Source of the DNA: Planctomycetota bacterium
Lineage (GTDB): Bacteria; Planctomycetota; MHYJ01; JACQXL01
Length of the DNA stretch: 64,000 nucleotides
Reading direction: 5' to 3'
Assembly (NCBI GenBank): GCA_016235865.1
Contig: JACRIK010000033.1
Span: 1 to 64,000 of the forward strand
Shown here: piece after piece, positions 13,401 to 64,000 of the stretch
Position numbering within the stretch: position 1 is the stretch's first letter
How the letters are laid out: every line of letters begins with the position of its first letter
The notes under the pieces: model-generated
What the model was told of the DNA's origin: nothing
Database searches by the model: none
The model's input: the letters and a program-made list of their open reading frames with translations, nothing else
Program-made: the position numbers and the translations under genes

Positions 13401-13821
13401 TATAAACGGCGCCATAGACGACTACGGCAAGGCCATCCAGCTTGAGCCGGGCAATGCCGGGGCGTATAACAATCGGGGAATGGCCAAAGCCAACAAGGGA
13501 GACGCCAAAGGCGCCATAAATGATTTTGACAAGGCCGTGGAACTCAAACCAGATTATGCCGAGGCGTATCACAGCCGCGGGGTGGTAAAGTATAACAGCG
13601 GAGATGTCGCAGGCGCCGTAAAGGATTTTACCAGGGCCGTAGAAATCAGGCCTGATTATGCACGGGCATATTATTACCGCGGAGTGGCATTGAACGCCCA
13701 ACAGAAATACGACCCGGCGCTGGCGGACTTCGAAAAGGTATTGGAATTGGATTCAGGCTCGGAACTCAAGGTAAAGGCCAGAGAGATGATAGAGAGGATA
13801 AAAGGAAAACAGGGTAAATAG
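10453..13821 (+). CDS. Membrane Ser/Thr protein kinase with long TPR array
   Basis: A 1122-residue PknB-type kinase. The kinase domain spans residues about 74-335: glycine loop [18 protein letters not shown] lysine, catalytic [13 protein letters not shown] in LTDFGLAKE, and the SPEQ form of the APE motif. A single membrane helix ([21 protein letters not shown], about 364-384) follows, so the C-terminal part would face outward. That part is about 18 to 20 tetratricopeptide repeats, many with the AYYNRG or AYYSRG signature, ending near residue 1110. An N-terminal extension (residues 1-70) resembles small adaptor segments seen in planctomycete kinases. The large TPR array suggests a scaffold or sensor of protein ligands. 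Tandem repeats of this sort are prone to slippage. Stand-alone; mutM follows 40 bases on. Confidence 0.93.
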
Positions 13822-13860
13822 CGGCAGGAGTCTGCCCGTTGCCTGAACCTTAGATATTTT

Positions 13861-14688
13861 ATGCCAGAACTGCCGGAAGTAGAAACGGTTTGCCGGGGGT
13901 TGCGCAAGTATGCGCTGGGTCTGAGGATTAAGGATGTCCGGGTCAGCCTGCCCAAGATTATCAATGTTCCGGTAGGACAATTCCGCAGACATCTTATCGG
14001 CGCCACGATTAAGGACGTGCAACGCCGGGCCAAGACCATTAATATCAGGTTTTCCAATGGCTACTGGCTGGTGGTTCATCTTAAGATGTCCGGCCAGCTG
14101 CTCTATCTGTCCAAGGCCGAACCTATTAGGAAACATACCCATGTCATCTTTGGCTTGAGCAATGGTGATACTTTGCGGTTTTGGGACCAGCGCCAGTTCG
14201 GGTATGTGCGCCTGTTTGACGGCCCGGGCCGGGACCGGTTTATGGCCGAGCTGGATTTCGGGCCTGAGCCACTGGAAAAGGGTTTTACCCTGGAGCGTTT
14301 CAGGAGGATGCTGGCAACCAAGCCCAGAGCGCGTATTAAGCCGCTCCTGATGGACCAGACCTTTATCAGCGGCATCGGCAATCTCTATGCGGACGAGATT
14401 CTGTTTTACGCGAGGATTCATCCGCTCACCCGGGTCAAGGCAGTAAGAGACCTGCAAATTAAGAAGATTTTCCAGGGCATCAAGCAGATACTGGCCTTAG
14501 GCGTCAAGAAGCGGGGCAGTTCCATCGAGTTATATGTGGATGTGGAGGGCAAGCCGGGCGGGTTTGTGCCGTATATCAAGGCCTACGGCCGGGACGGTCA
14601 GGCCTGTGTCCGTTGTAAAACACCGATTCAGCGGATAAAGATCGGCGCGCGCAGCGCCTCGTTCTGCCCTAAATGCCAGAAGATATAG
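13861..14688 (+). CDS. mutM: Formamidopyrimidine-DNA glycosylase
   Basis: A 275-residue base-excision repair glycosylase/AP lyase for oxidised purines such as 8-oxoguanine. The catalytic N-terminus PELPEVETV (Pro2, Glu3) is intact. LKMSGQL carries the conserved Lys, ISGIGNLYADEILF is the helix-two-turn-helix, and the last 25 residues form the zinc finger CVRCKTP...FCPKCQ. The length is normal. The start must be the ATG at 13861 to free Pro2. It follows the kinase gene with a 40-base gap and may be read through from it. Confidence 0.96.
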   Translation: MPELPEVETVCRGLRKYALGLRIKDVRVSLPKIINVPVGQFRRHLIGATIKDVQRRAKTINIRFSNGYWLVVHLKMSGQLLYLSKAEPIRKHTHVIFGLSNGDTLRFWDQRQFGYVRLFDGPGRDRFMAELDFGPEPLEKGFTLERFRRMLATKPRARIKPLLMDQTFISGIGNLYADEILFYARIHPLTRVKAVRDLQIKKIFQGIKQILALGVKKRGSSIELYVDVEGKPGGFVPYIKAYGRDGQACVRCKTPIQRIKIGARSASFCPKCQKI

Positions 14689-14691
14689 TTT

Positions 14692-14775
14692 TACCACAAA
14701 GACACCAAGGCGCGAAGAATACGAAGAGAACACGAATTTTACGAATAATACCGAATCAAACGAATAGGAATTACA
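14692..14775 (+). repeat. Dispersed accacaaagacac/cacgaat word repeat
   Basis: The downstream gap of mutM starts with accacaaagacaccaaggcg and continues with cgaagagaacacgaattt and caaacgaatag. The opening word is nearly the same as the gap at 60103-60128 and as the in-frame insert in the protease gene at 4834. No hairpin with a T-run is evident, so it is probably not a terminator. Confidence 0.6.
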
Positions 14776-14897
14776 GATTTATATTTTAGTATAATTTTAT
14801 TGACTAATCTTTGAGTGAAGAGTAGAAATACCAGTAATTATTAACGCCCGAAATATATCCGTATCAGGGTATTAACACAACAGAAACGGAGTTGCAA

Positions 14898-17171
14898 ATG
14901 AGACGATTAATAGTATTTTTAGCGTTGTTTTTATTCATCAGCGCGCCGGTGGCGCAGGTTTTAATGGCCCAGGATGCGGAAGGCGACGTGCAATTCAAAA
15001 CGCTCTACCGGCAGGGGATTGATTTGGTCAAGCGGGGCAAATACCAGGACGCCTACGTGTCTTTTGAGAAGGCGCTGCAATTAAGCCCGTCATCGGACCT
15101 GGTGCGTTTTATGATTCAGGAGACCGGCGACCTGATAATCAAGGAGATGATGAGCAATCCTGATTTGAAGCAGACGGCTTTGCGGATTCTGGAACTGGGT
15201 AAAGGCGCCTTCCAGCGCTATGTCCGTTCCCCAGAACAGATTCAGGCCATTGTGGCCCAGCTGGAGGGGTCCTTTGATAAGAAGTGGGAGGCCATCAATA
15301 CGCTGGCGGCCATCGGCCAGCGGGCCGCGCCGTTCCTGATTGAGCAATTGGGTGATAAGTCGGACACGAAACGCACCGCCATGATGATGGCATTGGAGAA
15401 GATTGGCAATGAAGCGGTCTTGCCGATGATAGAGGCGCTCCAGAGCAAAAATATGCTGGTCCGGCAGAACGCGGCCATTGTCCTGGGCGTTATCCGGGAT
15501 GACCGGGCATTGCCGGAATTAAAACGGGTTTACGAGGACGAGAAGGAATCTCCCGAGGTCAGGCGGCTGGTAGCCGATGCCCTGAAGAAGATAGCCCGGG
15601 TCGAACCGGACAAGTTAAAACCGGCCAAGGAATGTTATTACGAGCTGGCCGAGAAATATTATTACAACCACCCGTCGGTGATGGTGAATTTCTACGGCGA
15701 ATTCATCTTCTGGCGCTGGAACAAGGAAACCGACACCCTGGCGCTCAGGGAGGTGCCGGATTTCGCGCTTAATGAACTGCTGGCCGAAGAATGCTGCTAC
15801 GACGGCTTGAGATTGGATGACAATTACGAGCCGACCTGGTCTTTGCTGGTCAGCGTTCTTTTATCAAAATACAATGAGGCAGACTGGGCTCTGCAGGCGG
15901 CGCTGAAGAAGAGCAAGACCGGCGAGGTGGCCGATGACCTGCTGAAGAAACTGCAGGCGGACCTGGCCAAGTTCGGGGAGAATTTCACCACCGGTTCGAT
16001 TGGCGGCAAGTCGCATCTTTACAGCGCGCTCAAGCGTTCGCTGTCCGACGGCAACAACGAGGTGGCGGTTTCCTGCATCAAGGCGCTGGCGGCATCAGCC
16101 GATGCTAAGGATTTGCCGACCACAGCCCGGGCCGATGCTTCAGCGCCGGGCATGCCTTTGATAGAAGCCATAGTCCATTCCGATAAAAGGGTCAGGTATG
16201 CCGCGGCCGAGGCGCTGCTTAAGATTAATCCGCCTGAGTCGTTCCCCAATATGGAAAAAGTGATTCCGGTGATAAACGAGGCGTTGGGCGAGAGCGGAAT
16301 CCGGGTGGTTCTGATGATTGAGCCGGACCCGGAGGTGCGTTCCGGACTGAAGAATGAACTGGCCAAACTGAATTGCTTTGTCACCGAGGCGCTGAGCGCC
16401 GAGGAAGGCATCAAGATGGCCAAGAGGTTCCCGACTGAAGATTTGATAATCCTGAACAACAAATTAGCCAACGAGGTGGTGTTTACGGTCAATCTTCTGG
16501 TAAAAGGGGAAAAGTATTCCGAGACCGTATTTAATTCGCTCAAGGACGATATCCGGAGCCGGGGCATACCGCTGATAATGATTGGCGGCAAGGAAGACCT
16601 GGAAAAGGCCAAGAGCATCTATCAGGAAAAGGTGGATAGCTACCTGGTGACGCCGGCTGAAGGCGCGGTCTTGGCCGAGGCGATTAATAAGGTATTCCAG
16701 AGGGAGGAGATCCAGAACGACAGCAAGTCCAAGGCATTACAGGTCTGCGCCGACGCGGCCAAAGGGCTTTCCCGGCTCGATATGCGCAACACCATCTATC
16801 CGTACCGCCAGACCATCGAGGCGTTACTGGGCGTCCTGGAAGGCCGTCCGGATAATATCCGGGAACTGGCCCTGGAGGCGCTCAGGCGTTTTGCAGACGC
16901 GGCGGCCCTGGACGGACTGCTCAAGGTATTGACCAACAAGGAAAACCCCCTGCTTATCAGGCAGAAGACCGGTGAGGTCATCGCCGCTGTTTTCCGCGGT
17001 AATCCGGACAGTATTTCGCAGGAGATTTATGATACCCTCAAAAAGAGCTTCAAAGAGGACGAGCCGGAGATAAAACTGGCCGTGGCCATGGCATTAGGCA
17101 ATGCCAAGCTTACCCCGACGCAGAGAAAAGAACTATTTGAATTAAACCGTCCGGTTCTTCCGGGCGAATAA
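14898..17171 (+). CDS. Exported HEAT-repeat protein with degenerate receiver-like domain
   Basis: A 757-residue protein with a signal peptide (LIVFLALFLFISAPVAQVLMAQD). A TPR-like pair (GIDLVKRGKYQDAYVSFEKA) is followed by HEAT/PBS-lyase type repeats around residues 110-235 and again near 385-450 and 610-750. Residues about 465-600 resemble a response-regulator receiver: VVLMIEPDPEVRSGLKNEL, then DLIILNN and IPLIMIGG, and a VDSYLVTP ending. The phosphate-accepting Asp expected after strand 3 is Asn here, so phosphorylation is unlikely. A receiver fold on an exported protein is odd. GGAG stands 6 bases before the ATG at 14898; a TTG two codons earlier is less likely. It heads a likely operon with the FHA and cyclase-repeat genes. 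Confidence 0.75.
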   Translation: MRRLIVFLALFLFISAPVAQVLMAQDAEGDVQFKTLYRQGIDLVKRGKYQDAYVSFEKALQLSPSSDLVRFMIQETGDLIIKEMMSNPDLKQTALRILELGKGAFQRYVRSPEQIQAIVAQLEGSFDKKWEAINTLAAIGQRAAPFLIEQLGDKSDTKRTAMMMALEKIGNEAVLPMIEALQSKNMLVRQNAAIVLGVIRDDRALPELKRVYEDEKESPEVRRLVADALKKIARVEPDKLKPAKECYYELAEKYYYNHPSVMVNFYGEFIFWRWNKETDTLALREVPDFALNELLAEECCYDGLRLDDNYEPTWSLLVSVLLSKYNEADWALQAALKKSKTGEVADDLLKKLQADLAKFGENFTTGSIGGKSHLYSALKRSLSDGNNEVAVSCIKALAASADAKDLPTTARADASAPGMPLIEAIVHSDKRVRYAAAEALLKINPPESFPNMEKVIPVINEALGESGIRVVLMIEPDPEVRSGLKNELAKLNCFVTEALSAEEGIKMAKRFPTEDLIILNNKLANEVVFTVNLLVKGEKYSETVFNSLKDDIRSRGIPLIMIGGKEDLEKAKSIYQEKVDSYLVTPAEGAVLAEAINKVFQREEIQNDSKSKALQVCADAAKGLSRLDMRNTIYPYRQTIEALLGVLEGRPDNIRELALEALRRFADAAALDGLLKVLTNKENPLLIRQKTGEVIAAVFRGNPDSISQEIYDTLKKSFKEDEPEIKLAVAMALGNAKLTPTQRKELFELNRPVLPGE

Positions 17172-56254: not shown

Positions 56255-56638
56255 ATGTATTTAGACGCCGATTCCAGTAAGTGCACGGGTTGCCGGGTCT
56301 GCCTGACCGTCTGTTCGTTATATCATTTCAAGGAGGTAAATCCCAAGAAGGCCGCGCTGGCGGTCGATGCCAAATTTCCCAAGCCGGGCCATTACGAAGT
56401 GCGGGTCTGCAACCAGTGCGGCACCTGCGCCAGCGTCTGCCCGGTCGAGGCCATCTCCGAGAAATCCGGCATCTATATCATTGATGCCGATAAATGCACC
56501 GGCTGCGGCGAATGCGTCAAGGCCTGCCCGACCCAGGTGATGTTCCTGCACGAGGACAGCCCGGTGCCCATAAAGTGCGACCTGTGCAAGGAATGCATCC
56601 CGCTCTGCGGAACCAAGGTGTTATTCCTGAAAGACTAA
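56255..56638 (+). CDS. Polyferredoxin-type 4Fe-4S protein (AOR partner)
   Basis: A 127-residue electron carrier with sixteen cysteines in four clusters: CTGCRVCLTVC, CNQCGTCASVC, CTGCGECVKAC and CDLCKECIPLC, enough for four 4Fe-4S centres. It resembles the HycB/AorB-type subunits next to aldehyde:ferredoxin oxidoreductases, and the AOR gene follows 87 bases later. CAGGAGAGGAG lies before the ATG, an unusually strong site. The 126-base AT-rich gap before it probably holds the divergent promoters of this gene and the lipoprotein gene. Confidence 0.93.
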   Translation: MYLDADSSKCTGCRVCLTVCSLYHFKEVNPKKAALAVDAKFPKPGHYEVRVCNQCGTCASVCPVEAISEKSGIYIIDADKCTGCGECVKACPTQVMFLHEDSPVPIKCDLCKECIPLCGTKVLFLKD

Positions 56639-56640
56639 CG

Positions 56641-56706
56641 TTGGTGCGTCGTGAGTCCTGTGTTGTGCGTTTTAACACCTGACGCAGAGCGCAAGGCGCA
56701 GGACGC
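56641..56706 (+). repeat. tgcgtcgtgagtcctg / caggacgca repeat
   Basis: The ferredoxin-AOR gap consists of ggtgcgtcgtgagtcctgtg, gtgcgttttaacacctgacg and cgcaaggcgcaggacgca, two halves that are rough inverses. Closely similar words (gtgcgtcgtgggtcttgcgt, acgcaggacg) encode the signal segment of the protease at 4655-4718. Confidence 0.6.
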
Positions 56707-56725
56707 ATTAGATTAGGAGAATCAT

Positions 56726-58564
56726 ATGTTCGCTGAACGCAGTCCCTTCGGGTTCGGTTACGGCGGTAAGATATTAAGAGTCAATCTTTCTAATGGTAAG
56801 ATAACCACTGAGCCCCTGCCCGGGAAACTGGTCCGGGATTATTTGGGCGGGCGCGGTTTTGCCGCCCGGATTCTCTACGACGAATTAAAGCCCGGTATTG
56901 ACCCGATGGGCCCGGATAATAAAGTTCTTATTGCCTCAGGCCCCTTGGCGGGCTTGTTCCTGCCGGCCGGCGGCAAGATTACCTTTGCGGCTAAATCACC
57001 GGCTACCAATTCCTACGGTGACAGCAATATGGGCGGCCATTTGGCGGCTGAGGTAAAATACGCCGGCTACGACGTGATTATCATTGAAGGCGCGGCTGCT
57101 CAGCCCGTTTATCTCTATATCAATAACGACAAGGTGGAAATTCGCGATGCCGCGAAATACTGGGGCCAGGGCGCAATTATAACCGAAGACATGCTCAAGA
57201 ACGACCTGGGTCGGGAGTTTGAAATAGCCACCATCGGCCCGGCTGGCGAGAACAAAATCAAATTCGCCTGCATTTCCCACGATTTCGGACGTCAGGCCGG
57301 ACGGACCGGTATCGGCGCGGTTATGGGCTCGAAAAACCTCAAGGCCGTGGCCGTAAAAGGCACCAAGTCGCTCAAGGTGGCTGACCCGGATAAACTTTTG
57401 GAAATAGGCAAACAGGCCTTTGCCGACTGTTTCAAGCATACCGGCTGGAAACAGTGGGTGGCCCAGGGTACGGCCGGCGTGACCGTTTGGTCCAACCAGC
57501 AGGGCTCTTTCCCGACCCGCAATTTCCAGAGCGGCAGTTTGAAGGGCTACGAGAATATTTCCGGCGACGAGCTGGTCAAGCAGACCCTGGTTAATCACAA
57601 GGCCTGTTTCGGCTGCCCGTGCGCCTGCGGCAAATACGCCAAGACCGTCAGGAACAACAAGGATTATTATGTCGAAGGCCCGGAATACGAGACGGCCGCG
57701 CTTATCGGCGGCGACTGCGCCATCGGCAACATGGCTGATCTGACCTACGCCAATTATATCTGTGATGAACTGGGCATTGACACTATTTCCGGCGGCTCGG
57801 TGGTGGCCTTTGCCATGGAGTGCTATGAAAAGGGTATTATTACTAAAAAAGATACCGGAGGGATGGACTGGAAGTTCGGCAGTATCGAGGCCTTTGACAA
57901 GATAATAAATATGATTGCCCGCCGCCAGGGTATCGGAAACCTTCTGGCTGACGGCGTAAAGATTGCTTCCGAGAAATTGGGTAAAGGCTCCGAGAAATTC
58001 GCCATGCAAGTCAAGGGACTGGAGATTTCCGGCTACGAATCACGCAATGCCCCGGCCATGATGCTGGCCTATATGACCTGCGACATCGGCGCCCATCACA
58101 ACCGGGCCTGGGCCATTACCCACGACATCCAGGTCGGCCGCGACATCATCGAAGGCAAAGCCAAGAAGGTGGTGGAGCTTCAGCACATCAGGCCGATTTT
58201 CGATATGGTCGGCTGCTGCCGCCTGCAGTGGGTGGAGCTGGAACTTAAACTGGATTATTATCCGCAGTTGCTCAAGGCCGCCACCGGCTTGGACTTTACC
58301 TGGGATGAAATGCTCAAGGCATCGGAGCGGGTCTGGAACCTGACCCGGCTGTTCCTGATTAAGGAACACACCCAGACCTTCGGCCGACAGTTTGATTATC
58401 CGCCGGCCCGGTGGTATGAGGAGACCGTGGTCAACGGCCCGACCAAGGGCAGTATCATCAGCAAGGCCAATATAGATATACTCCTGGATGAATATTATAA
58501 TGTGCGCGGCTGGGACAAGAACGGCAAGCCCACACCGGAGAAGTTAAAGGAATTAGGGCTCTGA
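56726..58564 (+). CDS. aor: Tungsten-dependent aldehyde:ferredoxin oxidoreductase
   Basis: A 612-residue AOR-family enzyme that oxidises aldehydes to acids while reducing ferredoxin. KILRVNLSNGKITTEPLP, DYLGGRGFAARILYDEL and GPLAGLFLPAGGKITFAAKSP are the N-terminal pterin-binding signatures; GIGAVMGSKNLKAVAVKG and CFGCPCACGK (4Fe-4S) follow. Length and order match the family. The catalytic Glu/His set cannot be checked by eye. The metal is inferred to be W from the family. It shares a likely unit with the upstream four-cluster ferredoxin. moaA-moaC-MOSC 20 kb away would make its cofactor. Confidence 0.93.
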   Translation: MFAERSPFGFGYGGKILRVNLSNGKITTEPLPGKLVRDYLGGRGFAARILYDELKPGIDPMGPDNKVLIASGPLAGLFLPAGGKITFAAKSPATNSYGDSNMGGHLAAEVKYAGYDVIIIEGAAAQPVYLYINNDKVEIRDAAKYWGQGAIITEDMLKNDLGREFEIATIGPAGENKIKFACISHDFGRQAGRTGIGAVMGSKNLKAVAVKGTKSLKVADPDKLLEIGKQAFADCFKHTGWKQWVAQGTAGVTVWSNQQGSFPTRNFQSGSLKGYENISGDELVKQTLVNHKACFGCPCACGKYAKTVRNNKDYYVEGPEYETAALIGGDCAIGNMADLTYANYICDELGIDTISGGSVVAFAMECYEKGIITKKDTGGMDWKFGSIEAFDKIINMIARRQGIGNLLADGVKIASEKLGKGSEKFAMQVKGLEISGYESRNAPAMMLAYMTCDIGAHHNRAWAITHDIQVGRDIIEGKAKKVVELQHIRPIFDMVGCCRLQWVELELKLDYYPQLLKAATGLDFTWDEMLKASERVWNLTRLFLIKEHTQTFGRQFDYPPARWYEETVVNGPTKGSIISKANIDILLDEYYNVRGWDKNGKPTPEKLKELGL

Positions 58565-58594: not shown

Positions 58595-60094
58595 ATGAAG
58601 CAAACCGAATTAAATCCCCATCCCATCGTTCGTTATCTTCATAAGCCGTCCGCGGATTTTACCAGACAGGACTTGATTAAATTCATCGTTGATAACCAGA
58701 TCCAGATGCTTAACTTCCGCTATGTCGGCGGAGACGGCAAGTTAAAGACCCTGAACTTCGCCCTGACCGGCCGGACGCACCTGGACCGGATTCTCTCGGC
58801 TGGCGAGCGGGTGGACGGCTCGAGCTTGTTTTCTTATATTGACGCCGGCTCGAGCGATCTCTATGTCATCCCGCGCTACCGGACCGCCTTTGTCAATCCG
58901 TTCTCGGTTATACCGGCCGTGGATATCCTCTGCTCTTATTATACCAGCAAGGGCCAGCCGCTGCCCAGCGCCCCGGAATTCATCACGGCTAAGGCTAATC
59001 AGGCGCTCAAATCAGCCACCGGACTGGAGATGGAGGCCATGGGCGAACTGGAATATTACATCCTCTATAACAAAGACCCGCTTTATCCCAACGACGCCCA
59101 ACGCGGGTATCATGCCTCAACGCCCTTTGCCAAGTGGGAGCATCTTCGCCTCGAGGCGGCGCACGCCTTGTCTTCAATGGGCTGCCAGATTAAATACAGC
59201 CACGCCGAGGTCGGCCATATACCTGATACCGACCTGGAAATGGAACAGCACGAGATAGAATTCCTGCCGGTTAATATAGAATCCGCGGCAGACCAGATTG
59301 CCCTGGCCAAGTGGGCGCTCAGGACCTTGGCTTACAAATACGGAGTGACCGTGACCTTTGCGCCCAAATTATTGGTCGGCCACGCCGGCAGCGGGATGCA
59401 CATCCACAGCCGTCTGATAAAGAACGGCCGGAATATGATGGTGGCCAACGGCGAACTGAGCGACATTGCGCTCAAGGTCATTGCCGGCTATCTTAAGATG
59501 GCATCATCCCTGACCGCATTCGGCAATACCGTGCCGGTTTCGTATCTCCGACTGGTACCCAAACACGAAGCGCCGACCAATATCTGCTGGGGCGACCGCA
59601 ACCGCTCGGTCCTGGTGCGTGAGCCGCTGGGCTGGCGCAATAAGCGCGATATGGCCCGCAATGCAAATCCCAAAGAGAGGCAGAAATCATTGGGCAAAGG
59701 TGACAGCCAGACCGTGGAATTTCGCTGTCCGGACGGCTCGGCCAACGTGCATCTGCTGATGGCCGGACTGGCCTCAGCCGCCCGGCACGGACTGGAGATG
59801 CCCGGCGCGCTCAACCTGGCCCGGAAACTCTATGTCGATGTCAATATCTTCCACGATGAATATAAAAAGGTCCAGAAGACCCTGCCCCAGTTGCCACTGT
59901 CCTGCTGGCAGTCGGCTGACTGCCTGGTGCGCGACCGGGCGGTCTATGAAAAGGATGCGGTGTTTTCTCCCAAGGTGATTGACGGCATTGCCCGGAATTT
60001 AAAGAACTATAACGACCAGGATTTGAGCCGGAGGTTATACGGAAAACCGGCCAAGATAAAGGATTTGATTAACCAGTATCTGCATTGCAGTTAG
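58595..60094 (+). CDS. glnA: Glutamine synthetase
   Basis: A 499-residue glutamine synthetase. The N-terminal beta-grasp part (FIVDNQIQMLNFRYVGGDGK) is followed by catalytic blocks: MGELEYYIL, HAEVGHIPDTDLEMEQHEIEF, GSGMHIHSRL (with metal-binding His and Glu) and NRSVLVREPLGWRNK / QTVEFRCPDGSANVH. The adenylylation site KPLYD found in GSI-beta is not seen, so it is probably not under GlnE. The protein fits the type I-related group. It makes glutamine, the amide donor for the GatDE amidotransferase encoded right next to it. Confidence 0.92.
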   Translation: MKQTELNPHPIVRYLHKPSADFTRQDLIKFIVDNQIQMLNFRYVGGDGKLKTLNFALTGRTHLDRILSAGERVDGSSLFSYIDAGSSDLYVIPRYRTAFVNPFSVIPAVDILCSYYTSKGQPLPSAPEFITAKANQALKSATGLEMEAMGELEYYILYNKDPLYPNDAQRGYHASTPFAKWEHLRLEAAHALSSMGCQIKYSHAEVGHIPDTDLEMEQHEIEFLPVNIESAADQIALAKWALRTLAYKYGVTVTFAPKLLVGHAGSGMHIHSRLIKNGRNMMVANGELSDIALKVIAGYLKMASSLTAFGNTVPVSYLRLVPKHEAPTNICWGDRNRSVLVREPLGWRNKRDMARNANPKERQKSLGKGDSQTVEFRCPDGSANVHLLMAGLASAARHGLEMPGALNLARKLYVDVNIFHDEYKKVQKTLPQLPLSCWQSADCLVRDRAVYEKDAVFSPKVIDGIARNLKNYNDQDLSRRLYGKPAKIKDLINQYLHCS

Positions 60095-60102
60095 GGGGAT
60101 TA

Positions 60103-60205
60103 ACCACAAAGACACAAAGGACACAAAGAATAAACGATTCTGTGTTTTCTGTGCCTCAGTGGTTAATAATATATTTAATCGGTGTAATCTGTAGAATCTG
60201 TGGTT
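60103..60205 (+). repeat. accacaaagacacaaagg / tctgtgg word repeat
   Basis: This gap begins with accacaaagacacaaaggac and ends with gtagaatctgtggt, with ctgtgttttctgtgcctcag between, so its two halves roughly mirror each other. The first part recurs at 14692 and in frame in the protease gene (4834-4861 and, inverted, 5145-5174). Confidence 0.65.
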
Positions 60206-60206
60206 T

Positions 60207-62204
60207 ATGAATAAAATTGATTACAACAATCTGGCGTTTTACAGCGCGCTGGGTTTTAAGTCCGGTATAGAAATCCACCAGCAAATATTCACCCAAGAGA
60301 AACTCTTCTGCCATTGCCCGGCCGGCAGATATTCCAAGGTGCACGACGCCGAGGTGCTGCGCCATATGAGGCCGACCCTGTCCGAGCTGGGCGAATACGA
60401 CGGCTGCGCCCTGATGGAATTCAAGACCAAGAAAGACGTGGTTTACCAATTGAACCGGGAAACCGTCTGCACCTATGAAATGGACGACACCCCGCCCTTT
60501 ACCGTCAATCAGGAAGGACTGGATATCGCCATTGAGATTGCCTTGCTGCTAAATTGCAGTATCGTGGATGAGATGCACATCTCGCGCAAGCAGTACTTAG
60601 ACGGCAGTATCCCGACCGGGTTCCAGCGCACGGCCGTAGTCGGCATCAACGGCTGGATTCCGTTCAAGGACCGGAAGATCGGTATCAGCCATATCTGTTA
60701 CGAAGAAGATGCCTGCCGCCAGGTTAGTAATGTTGGGCATCGGGTAACATTCCGAACCGACCGGCTGGGCATGCCGTTGATTGAGGTAATCACTAGAGCG
60801 GATATGCGAACGCCGGAAGAGGCGCGCCAGGTGGTCAACGAAATCGGGCGCTTGGTCCGGGCCACCAAAAAGGTGCGCCGGGGCCTGGGTTCGGTTCGTC
60901 AGGACGTCAATTCCAGCATCACCGGCGGCTCGCGCGTGGAAATCAAAGGCGTGGCTCAGACCTGTATGATGCCGGCTTTGCTCCACAACGAAGCCCTGCG
61001 CCAGGAGAATCTGCTCAAGATAAAGAACATATTGACCAAACGTAATATTGGCGAGAAGAATCTTAATGTGGTTAAGCATGACCTGACCGCGGAATTGTCA
61101 GGGACGAAATCAAGGACTCTGCTTGATGCCATATATCGCAAGAAGGTTATCGGCGGAATCAAACTGGTTGGCCTAGCCGGCATATTCAATCATCCCTGCC
61201 AACCGACTACCACGCTGGCTGACGAGGTCAGCGACCGGGTGCGCATCATTGCCTGCCTGGATGAACTGCCCAACCTGTTCCATACCGATAAATACCCGTC
61301 TTATGACGGTGCGTTGGCTGACCTGGAAATAATTAAGAAGGCGCTGGCTGTGGGCAGGGATGATGTGGCTGTGGTTACCTGGGGTAGTCCGGCAGATGTC
61401 AAGACTGCGCTGGAAGAGGTGCGTCTGCGTATCGTGGACGCCATTAATGGCGTGCCTAACGAAACCAGAAGGGCACTGAAGAAGGGGATTACTGATTTTG
61501 AACGGATTCTGCCCGGCGCCAACCGGATGTATCCGGATACTGACTCTCCGCCCACCAAGATTACCCATGAGCGAGTCAACAAGATAAAGGAATATCTGCC
61601 TGAAGCGCCCTGGGCCAGGGAACAGCTCTACGCTAAGATGGGCATGGCTTATACCGTGGCGCGTGATTTAGCTATCTCTGACAAGGCATCTCTAGCTGAA
61701 ACGATTATCAAGGATTACAAAGTAAATCCGACATTAGTCGGCGCAGTCCTGACCCAGCAACTGACTGCGCTAAAACATAAGGGTATGAGAGCGGATAAAA
61801 TATTAGATGAATCATTCAAAGAACTCTTTGAACTCTATTCTAAAGGCCTGTTCCACAAAGAGGCCATTCCGCTGATTCTGACCCAGTTGGCTGGTAATAT
61901 TCCTGATGATTCCGCGCCTGTCATTGCGACCCCGCCGGGGCGGGGGAAGCAATCTCATTTGGTTAAGGATATTATATCAAGGATGGATTTAGGCATCCTT
62001 TCGGACAAGCAACTTGACAAAGTAATCAGTGATATGCTCAAATCCGGGGAATTCAAGACATTTCACAAGAATGGGGCAGACACGCGGGGCAAGCAGATTG
62101 CCTATTACAGCGGCGTAATTATGAAGACCTGCCGTGGCCGGATTAGTGGCCAGGCGCTCCAAAAAGCGCTGGCCAAGCGGGTGAACCATGCCGAACAGTT
62201 TTAA
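60207..62204 (+). CDS. gatE: Glutamyl-tRNA(Gln) amidotransferase subunit E (archaeal-type GatE)
   Basis: A 665-residue GatE, the tRNA-binding and amide-transferring subunit. The GatB-like cradle has SGIEIHQQIFTQEKLFCHCPAG and GSVRQDVNSSITGGSRVEIKGV; residues about 310-420 form the AspRS-like GAD insert that marks GatE and sets it apart from GatB; helical and YqeY-like tail domains end it. A 38-base dispersed repeat (61919-61956, TGTCATTGCGA...GAAGCAATC) is read in frame as VIATPPGRGKQS between the helical and tail parts. GatDE has been described as the archaeal system for Gln-tRNA, while bacteria normally use GatCAB or GlnRS. The start is ATG at 60207. Convergent with gatD across array E. Confidence 0.93.
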   Translation: MNKIDYNNLAFYSALGFKSGIEIHQQIFTQEKLFCHCPAGRYSKVHDAEVLRHMRPTLSELGEYDGCALMEFKTKKDVVYQLNRETVCTYEMDDTPPFTVNQEGLDIAIEIALLLNCSIVDEMHISRKQYLDGSIPTGFQRTAVVGINGWIPFKDRKIGISHICYEEDACRQVSNVGHRVTFRTDRLGMPLIEVITRADMRTPEEARQVVNEIGRLVRATKKVRRGLGSVRQDVNSSITGGSRVEIKGVAQTCMMPALLHNEALRQENLLKIKNILTKRNIGEKNLNVVKHDLTAELSGTKSRTLLDAIYRKKVIGGIKLVGLAGIFNHPCQPTTTLADEVSDRVRIIACLDELPNLFHTDKYPSYDGALADLEIIKKALAVGRDDVAVVTWGSPADVKTALEEVRLRIVDAINGVPNETRRALKKGITDFERILPGANRMYPDTDSPPTKITHERVNKIKEYLPEAPWAREQLYAKMGMAYTVARDLAISDKASLAETIIKDYKVNPTLVGAVLTQQLTALKHKGMRADKILDESFKELFELYSKGLFHKEAIPLILTQLAGNIPDDSAPVIATPPGRGKQSHLVKDIISRMDLGILSDKQLDKVISDMLKSGEFKTFHKNGADTRGKQIAYYSGVIMKTCRGRISGQALQKALAKRVNHAEQF

Positions 62205-62214
62205 AGGTGTTTTT

Positions 62215-62500
62215 GTGGCACACCGTATTCTTTTATAAACCGATACGGTTTCTGTTAATAACATTTGGCACCTCTTGTATACTTAGTGTTTTAGTAAGTT
62301 TACAAGAAACGGCGCTTGTTCGTATTTCGGATGCCGTTCGTTCGGTAAACAAATGCCGTTTCTTTGCCCATCAGATGCCATCCCTTATCAGCTTACTAAA
62401 ACATTAAGTTTACAAGAAATGGCGTCTGTTTTGATTAGTAATGCCATTCGGTTATCAATCAGACGCCACTTCTTTATCAATCAGATGCCACTCCTAAGGA
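62215..62500 (+). repeat. Degenerate 22-nt array E (about 13 units)
   Basis: Units with a GCC/GGC head keep a 22-base register: 62311, 62333, 62355, 62377, 62399, 62421, 62443, 62465, 62487, and in weaker form from 62223. A longer motif, aagtttacaagaaayggcg, occurs at 62296 and 62406, exactly five units apart. G-rich blocks (about 62520-62550) follow. The gap 62205-62653 between the two convergent gat genes contains no gene. Confidence 0.8.
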
Positions 62501-62653
62501 GCAGGGTGGGAATGTAACTCTGCCAGGGGGGTGGGGGGACTCCCCCCTGCCTGCGTAAGAGTTTGATTTATAAGGAGTTAAAGAAGGAATAATGGCAAAA
62601 AATGGTGGTTTTTAAGGCAAAAATAAGGATTTTTGTATGTGTAAATACCTGTT

Positions 62654-64000
62654 TTACTTCAAATGCTGTGAAATAAAGAGGTCCACCTCAGGCAGGCCGC
62701 CCTGTAGAATCAAATAGCCGTCGTGCGGCTCGCGTTCCGTTATTTCGTGGGCTATGGATGTGAGCATCATCTCCTTGACCTTGGCCGGTTCTTTGGTGTG
62801 GCCCAGCACCCAGCACAATTTCATATAGGCCACTTCAGGCAGCATATTGGCGCAGGGGATGACGCCCAGGTCCATCAAATCACGGCCCGTGTCATAGACA
62901 TACATCTGGACATAGCCCCATAATGTCTGAACCGTCATCACGACCGTAATGCCTTTATCCACCGCCTTCTTTAACGGCGCATAGAGCGGCTTATTGACGT
63001 GGCCCAGCCCGGTGCCGGCAATGACAATGCCTTCATACCCGTGGTCAATCAGGGAATCAATCATGTCCGGCTTCATATTGGGATAATAATAGACAATGGC
63101 CACCTTTTCGTTAAAGGCCGTGTCTATCTTGACTTTCTTATCCGCGCGCCGGCGCTTGTAATCATCGGTAAAGAACTTGAATTCGGTCGGCGAGGCCAGA
63201 CCTATGGGAATCCCGCCGATGGTCCTGAATGTGCTCCGGTAGCTGGAATGCATCTTGCGCACCCGGGTGCCCCGATGGAGCAGGCAATACTTATCGCTGG
63301 TCGGGCCGAACATGCAGACCATGACTTCAGCTGCGTCGCTGTAGGCCGCGGTCCGGACCGAGTTTATCAGGTTTAGGGCTGCGTCACTGGATGGCCGGTC
63401 GCTGGAACGCTGTGAGCCGACCATGACAATCGGCACCGGCGTATCTTGGACCATAAAAGAAAGTATGGCCGCGGTGTGGTGCATGGTATCCGTGCCGTGG
63501 CCGATGACAATGCCGGCCGCGCCGGCCTCGATTTCCTGGCCGATGGCCTGGGCCGTGGCGATATACTGCTCCGGGCCCATATTTTCGCTAAACACCCCGA
63601 AGAGTTTTATGGTCTTGAGGTTGCAGATATCAGCCAGTTCCGGCACCGCGCCGTAGAGTTCGCCCGGCGTAAAGGCCGGGATGACCGCGCCGGTCCGGTA
63701 ATCCAGCCGCGAGGCAATGGTTCCGCCCGTGCCCAGCAGCGTCACATTGGGCTTGGCCGGGTCAAACGGGAATGCCTTTTCGGGAATCTTATAGATGGCT
63801 TCTTTATAGCCCAGTTCCTTGATGGCAGTGATGGAATCGATATTGATGCCGGTATTATATCCGGCCCGGATTTTCAGGACGATATGCTGGCTGTCGCCGG
63901 TCTCGGATCGGGGCAAGATGATGCCCTCGAACTCGCCTTTGGTGGTATTGATGATGACATCGCTCCAGACCTTGACGTTGAACTGGATGAGCTTCTCTTT
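62654..64000 (-). CDS. gatD: Glutamyl-tRNA(Gln) amidotransferase subunit D (archaeal-type GatD), 5' end outside window
   Basis: The asparaginase-like subunit that frees ammonia from Gln or Asn for GatE. LLGTGGTIASRLDYRTGAV holds the nucleophilic Thr, GHGTDTMHHTA the TDT second Thr/Asp pair, and VGSQRSSDRPSSDAALN the Lys/Ser region; an N-terminal beta domain typical of GatD (QFNVKVWSDVIINTTKGEFEGIILP) precedes. The frame stays open to the edge of the window at 64000, so the true start lies outside it; a TTG at 63916 within the N-terminal domain is not the start. About 448 residues are visible. The final KYLILQGG-type tail ends VDLFISQHLK. It faces gatE convergently, so the two subunits are made from separate transcripts. 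Confidence 0.93.
   Translation of the reverse strand, partial: KEKLIQFNVKVWSDVIINTTKGEFEGIILPRSETGDSQHIVLKIRAGYNTGINIDSITAIKELGYKEAIYKIPEKAFPFDPAKPNVTLLGTGGTIASRLDYRTGAVIPAFTPGELYGAVPELADICNLKTIKLFGVFSENMGPEQYIATAQAIGQEIEAGAAGIVIGHGTDTMHHTAAILSFMVQDTPVPIVMVGSQRSSDRPSSDAALNLINSVRTAAYSDAAEVMVCMFGPTSDKYCLLHRGTRVRKMHSSYRSTFRTIGGIPIGLASPTEFKFFTDDYKRRRADKKVKIDTAFNEKVAIVYYYPNMKPDMIDSLIDHGYEGIVIAGTGLGHVNKPLYAPLKKAVDKGITVVMTVQTLWGYVQMYVYDTGRDLMDLGVIPCANMLPEVAYMKLCWVLGHTKEPAKVKEMMLTSIAHEITEREPHDGYLILQGGLPEVDLFISQHLK

Follow-up and report, generated by a model that had tools for sequence, protein, structure and literature searches.

The window analysed here is a 64,000-nucleotide stretch of contig JACRIK010000033.1 (positions 1 to 64,000, forward strand) from the draft genome of a Planctomycetota bacterium (GCA_016235865.1). 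At its 3' end lie gatE and gatD, which encode the two subunits of a GatDE-family amidotransferase. Their products belong to a distinct branch of that family that is not confined to archaea, here called bacterial-type GatDE. We judge the chances to be just better than even that the two genes together specify a complete, glutamine-dependent amidotransferase for Glu-tRNA(Gln) that serves as an auxiliary or corrective second route to Gln-tRNA and not as its sole source. The features that concern the two proteins are as follows.

60207-62204, plus strand: gatE, encoding a bacterial-type GatE of 665 residues, intact (ATG at 60207, stop codon at 62202-62204)
60585-60617, plus strand: clade signature motif RKQYLDGSIPT, GatE residues R127-T137 (classical archaeal form RK.V.DGSN)
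62654 to past 64000, minus strand: gatD, encoding the asparaginase-type glutaminase subunit of 461 residues, intact
62657-62725, minus strand: conserved GatD C-terminal tail, about the last 20 residues (DGYLILQGGLPEVDLFI...), from an alignment of 67 bacterial-type GatD

The window misses only the first codons of gatD (at most 39 bp); in the continuation of the contig the full gene occupies L003:2654-4039, which places its end at the equivalent of window position 64039.

Both proteins scored far above the curated cut-offs, in agreement with an earlier sequence-only reading of the window that had recognised a true archaeal-family GatD and GatE in a bacterium. GatE scored 559 bits against NF003107 (cut-off 456) and 473 bits against TIGR00134 (cut-off 319.6), with an alignment covering positions 4-619 of the 622 in the latter model. 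GatD scored 511 bits against TIGR02153 (cut-off 324) and 516 bits against NF003217, and contains asparaginase domains and GatD_N. The possibility that GatE is a GatB paralogue was ruled out, as it scored only 132 bits against the GatB model TIGR00133 (cut-off 314.8) and grouped apart from GatB in the tree. Pfam domains detected in GatE were GatB_N (residues 19-457) and a GatB_YqeY tail (residues 498-658). The AlphaFold (AF2) model of GatE had a predicted local distance difference test (pLDDT) score of 83.8, and its best matches in the PDB were P. abyssi GatE (1zq1_C; E 1e-47, target TM 0.82) and 2d6f. These matches spanned about 510-535 columns, and weak additional matches to AspRS were seen. 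The Pfam GAD model had no match in GatE; the fold and the full-length profile alignment nevertheless lend indirect support to the AspRS-like GAD insert that the sequence-only reading had described, and GatE probably contains one. The residues E22, H24, E166/E167, E193, T196, N235 and S237 of GatE were invariant, and the ATP/Mg residues established for GatB (listed in PMC4027206) were kept without change in bacterial GatE. In GatD, the catalytic residues T107, T183, D184 and K262 were kept in at least 97% of 67 sequences.

To place these proteins within the family, trees were built with GatE sequences. IQ-TREE analysis of 50 sequences split 13 classical archaeal from 37 bacterial-type GatE with 100% support in the Shimodaira-Hasegawa-like approximate likelihood ratio test (SH-aLRT) and a long branch. 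A FastTree analysis of 127 rows with GatB as the outgroup recovered the same split, and GatE did not fall inside bacterial GatB, a placement that the sequence-only reading had named as fatal to its proposal. The bacterial proteins did not group with classical archaeal GatE. Seven sequences from archaeal genomes, all of the phylum of an archaeon labelled Thermoplasmata (G107), fell within the bacterial type, near its base. A bacteria-only clade was poorly supported (38), so the tree is compatible with transfer in either direction between archaea and bacteria. The clade is also marked by fixed residues. Y130, I135 and P136 in the signature motif were invariant in 89 bacterial sequences and in every archaeal sequence of the bacterial-type clade, and their counterparts in 25 classical archaeal GatE were V, N and T. 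Other residues fixed differently between the two types include D94, T95 and D444 (window-protein numbering). When aligned with the 67 bacterial-type GatD, the solved GatD of P. abyssi and M. thermautotrophicus lacked the C-terminal tail. Bacterial-type GatDE shares with the archaeal enzyme (1zq1 of P. abyssi; 2d6f of M. thermautotrophicus, with tRNA-Gln) both subunits, their fold, the catalytic residues and the domain plan. It differs in sequence (35-39% identity for GatE, 48-50% for GatD), in its separate clade on a long and fully supported branch, in its fixed GatE residues and GatD tail, and in its context of U1-A72 instead of A1-U72 tRNA-Gln, with other Gln routes in the same cell.

GatE and GatD were then sought in 59 Planctomycetota genomes. 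GatE was above the cut-off in 10, and GatD was found in nine of the same ten, the exception being a genome that is 76% complete. The two genes were nearly always found together, usually in an overlapping operon. A 10-sequence GatE alignment, used to scan the contigs of a genome collection, retrieved at least 584 related loci. The best 80 of these came from some 20 bacterial phyla, together with one record labelled as a Thermoplasmata archaeon, and included three closed bacterial chromosomes (CP070758, CP054675 and CP070707). The same contig scan with a single GatE sequence gave no match where the alignment query succeeded, and a single-sequence query found no GatE in viral contigs. Reviews describe GatDE as occurring only in archaea (PMC9499178), as did the sequence-only reading; the present data contradict this.

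An artefact of assembly or binning, or archaeal contamination, deserves practically no credence and is already refuted. The genome is a draft of 2.67 Mb in 38 contigs (96% complete, 2.1% estimated contamination), which could admit such an error. However, the contig of 111,082 bp runs on at length on both sides of the locus, the sequences lie in the bacterial and not the archaeal clade, and closed bacterial chromosomes carry GatDE. Genomes of the same order hold close homologues (GatD 84-92% and GatE 57-60% identical), and one such relative (G006) has the same GatE and GatD matches (L099 and L103). The contig is therefore not chimeric; chimerism was the other finding that the sequence-only reading had named as fatal to its proposal. 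It is also very unlikely that gatDE is a laterally acquired passenger that moves among bacteria with little function in its hosts. Its spread in Planctomycetota is patchy (10/59 genomes), and planctomycete GatE do not form one clade (approximately unbiased (AU) test, p about 1e-108), so that, as judged from the sequences, gatE has moved between bacterial phyla. Yet only one in-frame stop was found among the ten planctomycete GatE copies, the frames being otherwise open, the catalytic residues are invariant, and GatD is highly conserved across phyla, all of which requires purifying selection.

The other genes for Gln-tRNA synthesis in this genome bear on the role of the locus. GatB (C18) scored 583 bits against TIGR00133 and 668 bits against NF004012, and GatA (C24) scored 673 bits; both are full length and are encoded on separate contigs. 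GlnRS had no match in the genome. There is one bacterial GltX (521 bits), and AsnRS scored 547 bits, above any AspRS model. Both tRNA-Gln genes (CUG and UUG) carry U1-A72, as does tRNA-Asn. The U1-A72 pair is the determinant for GatCAB (PMC4027206). Since GatA and GatB are present and tRNA-Gln carries U1-A72, this appears to be a cell with two candidate Glu-tRNA(Gln) amidotransferases, GatDE and GatCAB. The sequence-only reading had proposed that, should both GatCAB and GlnRS be missing, the bacterium would depend on the archaeal route for Gln-tRNA. GlnRS is indeed absent, but GatA and GatB rule out GatDE as the sole route here. Dependence on GatDE in a weaker sense, for example with a GatCAB that is incomplete or used for Asn only, is improbable. 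The lack of GlnRS, the separate contigs of gatA and gatB, and a gatC that was not located in the genome loci searched would fit such dependence. In contrast, GatA and GatB are full length at the scores given, AsnRS allows Asn decoding without a need for GatCAB, tRNA-Gln carries the pair that GatCAB recognises, and a sister genome (G005) has a full gatC-gatA-gatB operon plus GatDE.

Coexistence with other routes is common among carriers. In a sample of 57 GatE-bearing bacterial genomes, consisting of carriers only and so showing coexistence and not enrichment, GlnRS was above the cut-off in 43, GatB in 30 and AsnRS in 51. GlnRS and/or GatB were present in 53 of the 57. The other four (G035, G059, G069 and G091) had neither above the cut-off; G035 and G059 keep GatA in part or in full, which leaves G069 and G091, both drafts. 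On three closed chromosomes (G060, G081 and G099), GlnRS and AsnRS were present and GatA and GatB were not; hmmscan bore out the AsnRS assignment in each of them and the GlnRS assignment in G060 and G081. A special co-transfer of GatE with GlnRS was considered and is unsupported, the distance correlation of GatE with GlnRS being 0.39 compared with 0.37 for GatE with AsnRS.

A similar pattern was found in the archaeal phylum of G107. GlnRS was above the cut-off in 7/7 genomes with bacterial-type GatE and in 0/9 tested genomes with classical GatE only; two more genomes had GlnRS and no GatE match. This link is an association and not a count of independent events, because the genomes are drafts and may be mutually related. 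Nine archaeal genomes encode GlnRS at 685-744 bits (G107, G112, G113, G115, G119, G122, G123, G125 and G132), and in a tree the archaeal GlnRS loci (L285-L290 and L327-L329) fell among the bacterial sequences. The GlnRS gene of G107, the genome of locus L109, lies between two tRNA-Gln genes, both with the archaeal A1-U72 pair. Classical and bacterial-type GatE occur together in the archaeal genomes G125 (L271/L284) and G132 (L277/L283).

The neighbours of gatDE point towards glutamine and tRNA-Gln. Next to gatE in the window, as the sequence-only reading had noted, is a glutamine synthetase gene.

58595-60094, plus strand: glutamine synthetase, divergent type I, 499 residues (Gln-synt_C 190 bits, Gln-synt_N 43 bits)

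A gap of 112 bp separates this gene from gatE, which follows it in the same orientation. At seven other loci (G016, G050, G054, L109, L114, L151 and L169), as in the window, gatE or gatD has a glutamine synthetase gene directly beside it on the same strand, and all glutamine synthetase matches in the flanks were directly adjacent to gatE/gatD, with none further away. This suggests that the adjacency is more than chance. The enzyme of the window is a probable supplier of the amide donor; its activity is inferred only, as it is a divergent type I protein scoring 222 bits against TIGR00653, under the GlnA cut-off of 429. Elsewhere, a planctomycete without GatA and GatB (G048) encodes a GlnRS with a C-terminal GatB/YqeY fusion (L093:10725-13067) whose gene overlaps gatE by 4 nt, a GlnRS gene adjoins gatE in divergent orientation at L144, and a tRNA-Gln gene directly follows gatE at L109. 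Besides gatD and glutamine synthetase, no conserved operon partners were found in the flanks compared.

Given the catalytic residues, the partner gene and the glutamine and tRNA-Gln neighbours, a working Glu-tRNA(Gln) amidotransferase is the simplest reading of the locus. GatD would hydrolyse glutamine provided by the adjacent glutamine synthetase, and the ammonia would pass to GatE, which would use ATP to activate the glutamate carried by Glu-tRNA(Gln), the product of the single GluRS, and would then amidate it. GatDE would act in parallel to GatCAB in this planctomycete and in parallel to GlnRS in most related carriers, and for this reason we infer an auxiliary role and not that of sole source. 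Its corrective task may be to clear Glu-tRNA(Gln), perhaps arising from a non-discriminating GluRS, on U1-A72 tRNA-Gln.

Several points weigh against this reading. We know of no biochemistry for the bacterial-type GatDE clade. An auxiliary amidotransferase need not stay conserved across phyla if GlnRS or GatCAB suffices, and the unusual conservation of GatD (mean pairwise identity of 73%, versus 53% for GatE, and versus 56% for GlnRS and 50% for AsnRS in carrier genomes) hints at a further constraint. With gatC not located, the GatCAB of this genome is deduced from GatA and GatB. The tRNA itself poses a further difficulty. The A1-U72 pair of tRNA-Gln is what archaeal GatDE is reported to recognise (PMC9499178), and the archaeon G107 has A1-U72 in 3/3 tRNA-Gln genes, but bacterial tRNA-Gln carried U1-A72 in 55/55 genes examined, a few of them from genomes without GatDE. 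Recognition by bacterial GatDE must therefore differ from that of archaeal GatDE or be relaxed. The RKQYLDGSIP motif was considered as the switch to U1-A72 and ruled out, as G107 has the same motif.

The main rival is that GatDE has been repurposed, whether to act on a different aminoacyl-tRNA, to serve one dedicated tRNA-Gln isoacceptor or to support some use of aminoacyl-tRNA outside the ribosome, and provides no general supply of Gln-tRNA. We regard this as somewhat unlikely. It would account for the presence of GatDE alongside GlnRS and/or GatB in nearly all bacterial carriers and alongside GlnRS in the seven archaea, for the classical GatE that two archaeal genomes retain next to the bacterial type, and for the unusually conserved GatD with its clade-specific tail and the clade-specific residues of GatE. 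In contrast, GatDE retains its catalytic residues, its ATP/Mg residues and its tRNA-binding tail, and its gene neighbourhoods link it with glutamine synthetase, GlnRS and tRNA-Gln and with no new pathway, other neighbours not being conserved. A broader proposal, which we hold tentatively and at less than even confidence, is that bacterial-type GatDE is functionally separate, either as a quality-control or isoacceptor-specific partner of GlnRS or GatCAB or in the use of another aminoacyl-tRNA, and that it marks two-route cells across some 20 bacterial phyla and in some archaea that have gained GlnRS.

Two known arrangements are close to the auxiliary amidotransferase that we favour. Bacterial GatCAB catalyses the same reaction and is found in the same genome, and GatB and GatE have a common kinase/transamidase core and a YqeY-like tail. 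However, the glutaminase of GatDE is the asparaginase-type GatD and that of GatCAB is the amidase-type GatA, and GatE is below the GatB cut-off and apart from GatB in the tree. Deinococcus, Thermus and Bdellovibrio likewise combine direct and indirect routes in one cell, having GlnRS, AsnRS and a retained GatCAB; in those genera GatCAB is accounted for by its part in tRNA-dependent Asn synthesis (PMC4206432). According to a 2014 survey, the two routes to Gln-tRNA were not known to occur together in any bacterium (PMC4206432); a bacterium with GatDE beside GlnRS would be such a case, provided that the enzyme is active. The archaeal GlnRS loci similarly point to exceptions to the statement that archaea are without GlnRS (PMC9499178). 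Views of the last common ancestor that draw on GatDE, and explanations of why archaea never took up GlnRS, would have to be revised. The carriers with closed genomes and hosts of the Caldithrix and Ignavibacteria types make two-route cells, and the reading of U1-A72 by GatDE, directly testable. The family itself is already known, and NCBI models already name such proteins. What appears to be new relative to the open-licence literature is the range of hosts, the placement in a clade of its own, the occurrence with U1-A72 tRNA-Gln and the presence alongside GlnRS in bacteria and some archaea.

The layout of the locus is unusual. As the sequence-only reading had stated, gatE and gatD are convergent, with 449 bp between them.

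62205-62653, no strand: non-coding gap between the convergent stop codons of gatE and gatD, with short direct and inverted repeats

The usual order elsewhere is gatE followed by gatD, overlapping or separated by anything from a few to a few hundred bases (49 loci), and among the loci compared the convergent order was met only in this planctomycete order. The convergent arrangement is a local rearrangement of the usual overlapping operon. An Rfam search near gatE and gatD, with the gap included, gave no credible match to a structured RNA. Between glutamine synthetase and gatE, at 60099-60167, is an imperfect 27-nt inverted repeat of the CACAAAGACACAAAGG type, the core of which has a second copy at 14695. 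Directly 5' of glutamine synthetase and on the same strand, 56255-58564 holds genes for a 4Fe-4S ferredoxin and an aldehyde:ferredoxin oxidoreductase. Just past the window there is a partial duplication of dnaK (L003:10630-11412 and 13605-15623), in which a near-identical 260-residue part of the DnaK C-terminal region lies 2 kb from the DnaK gene.

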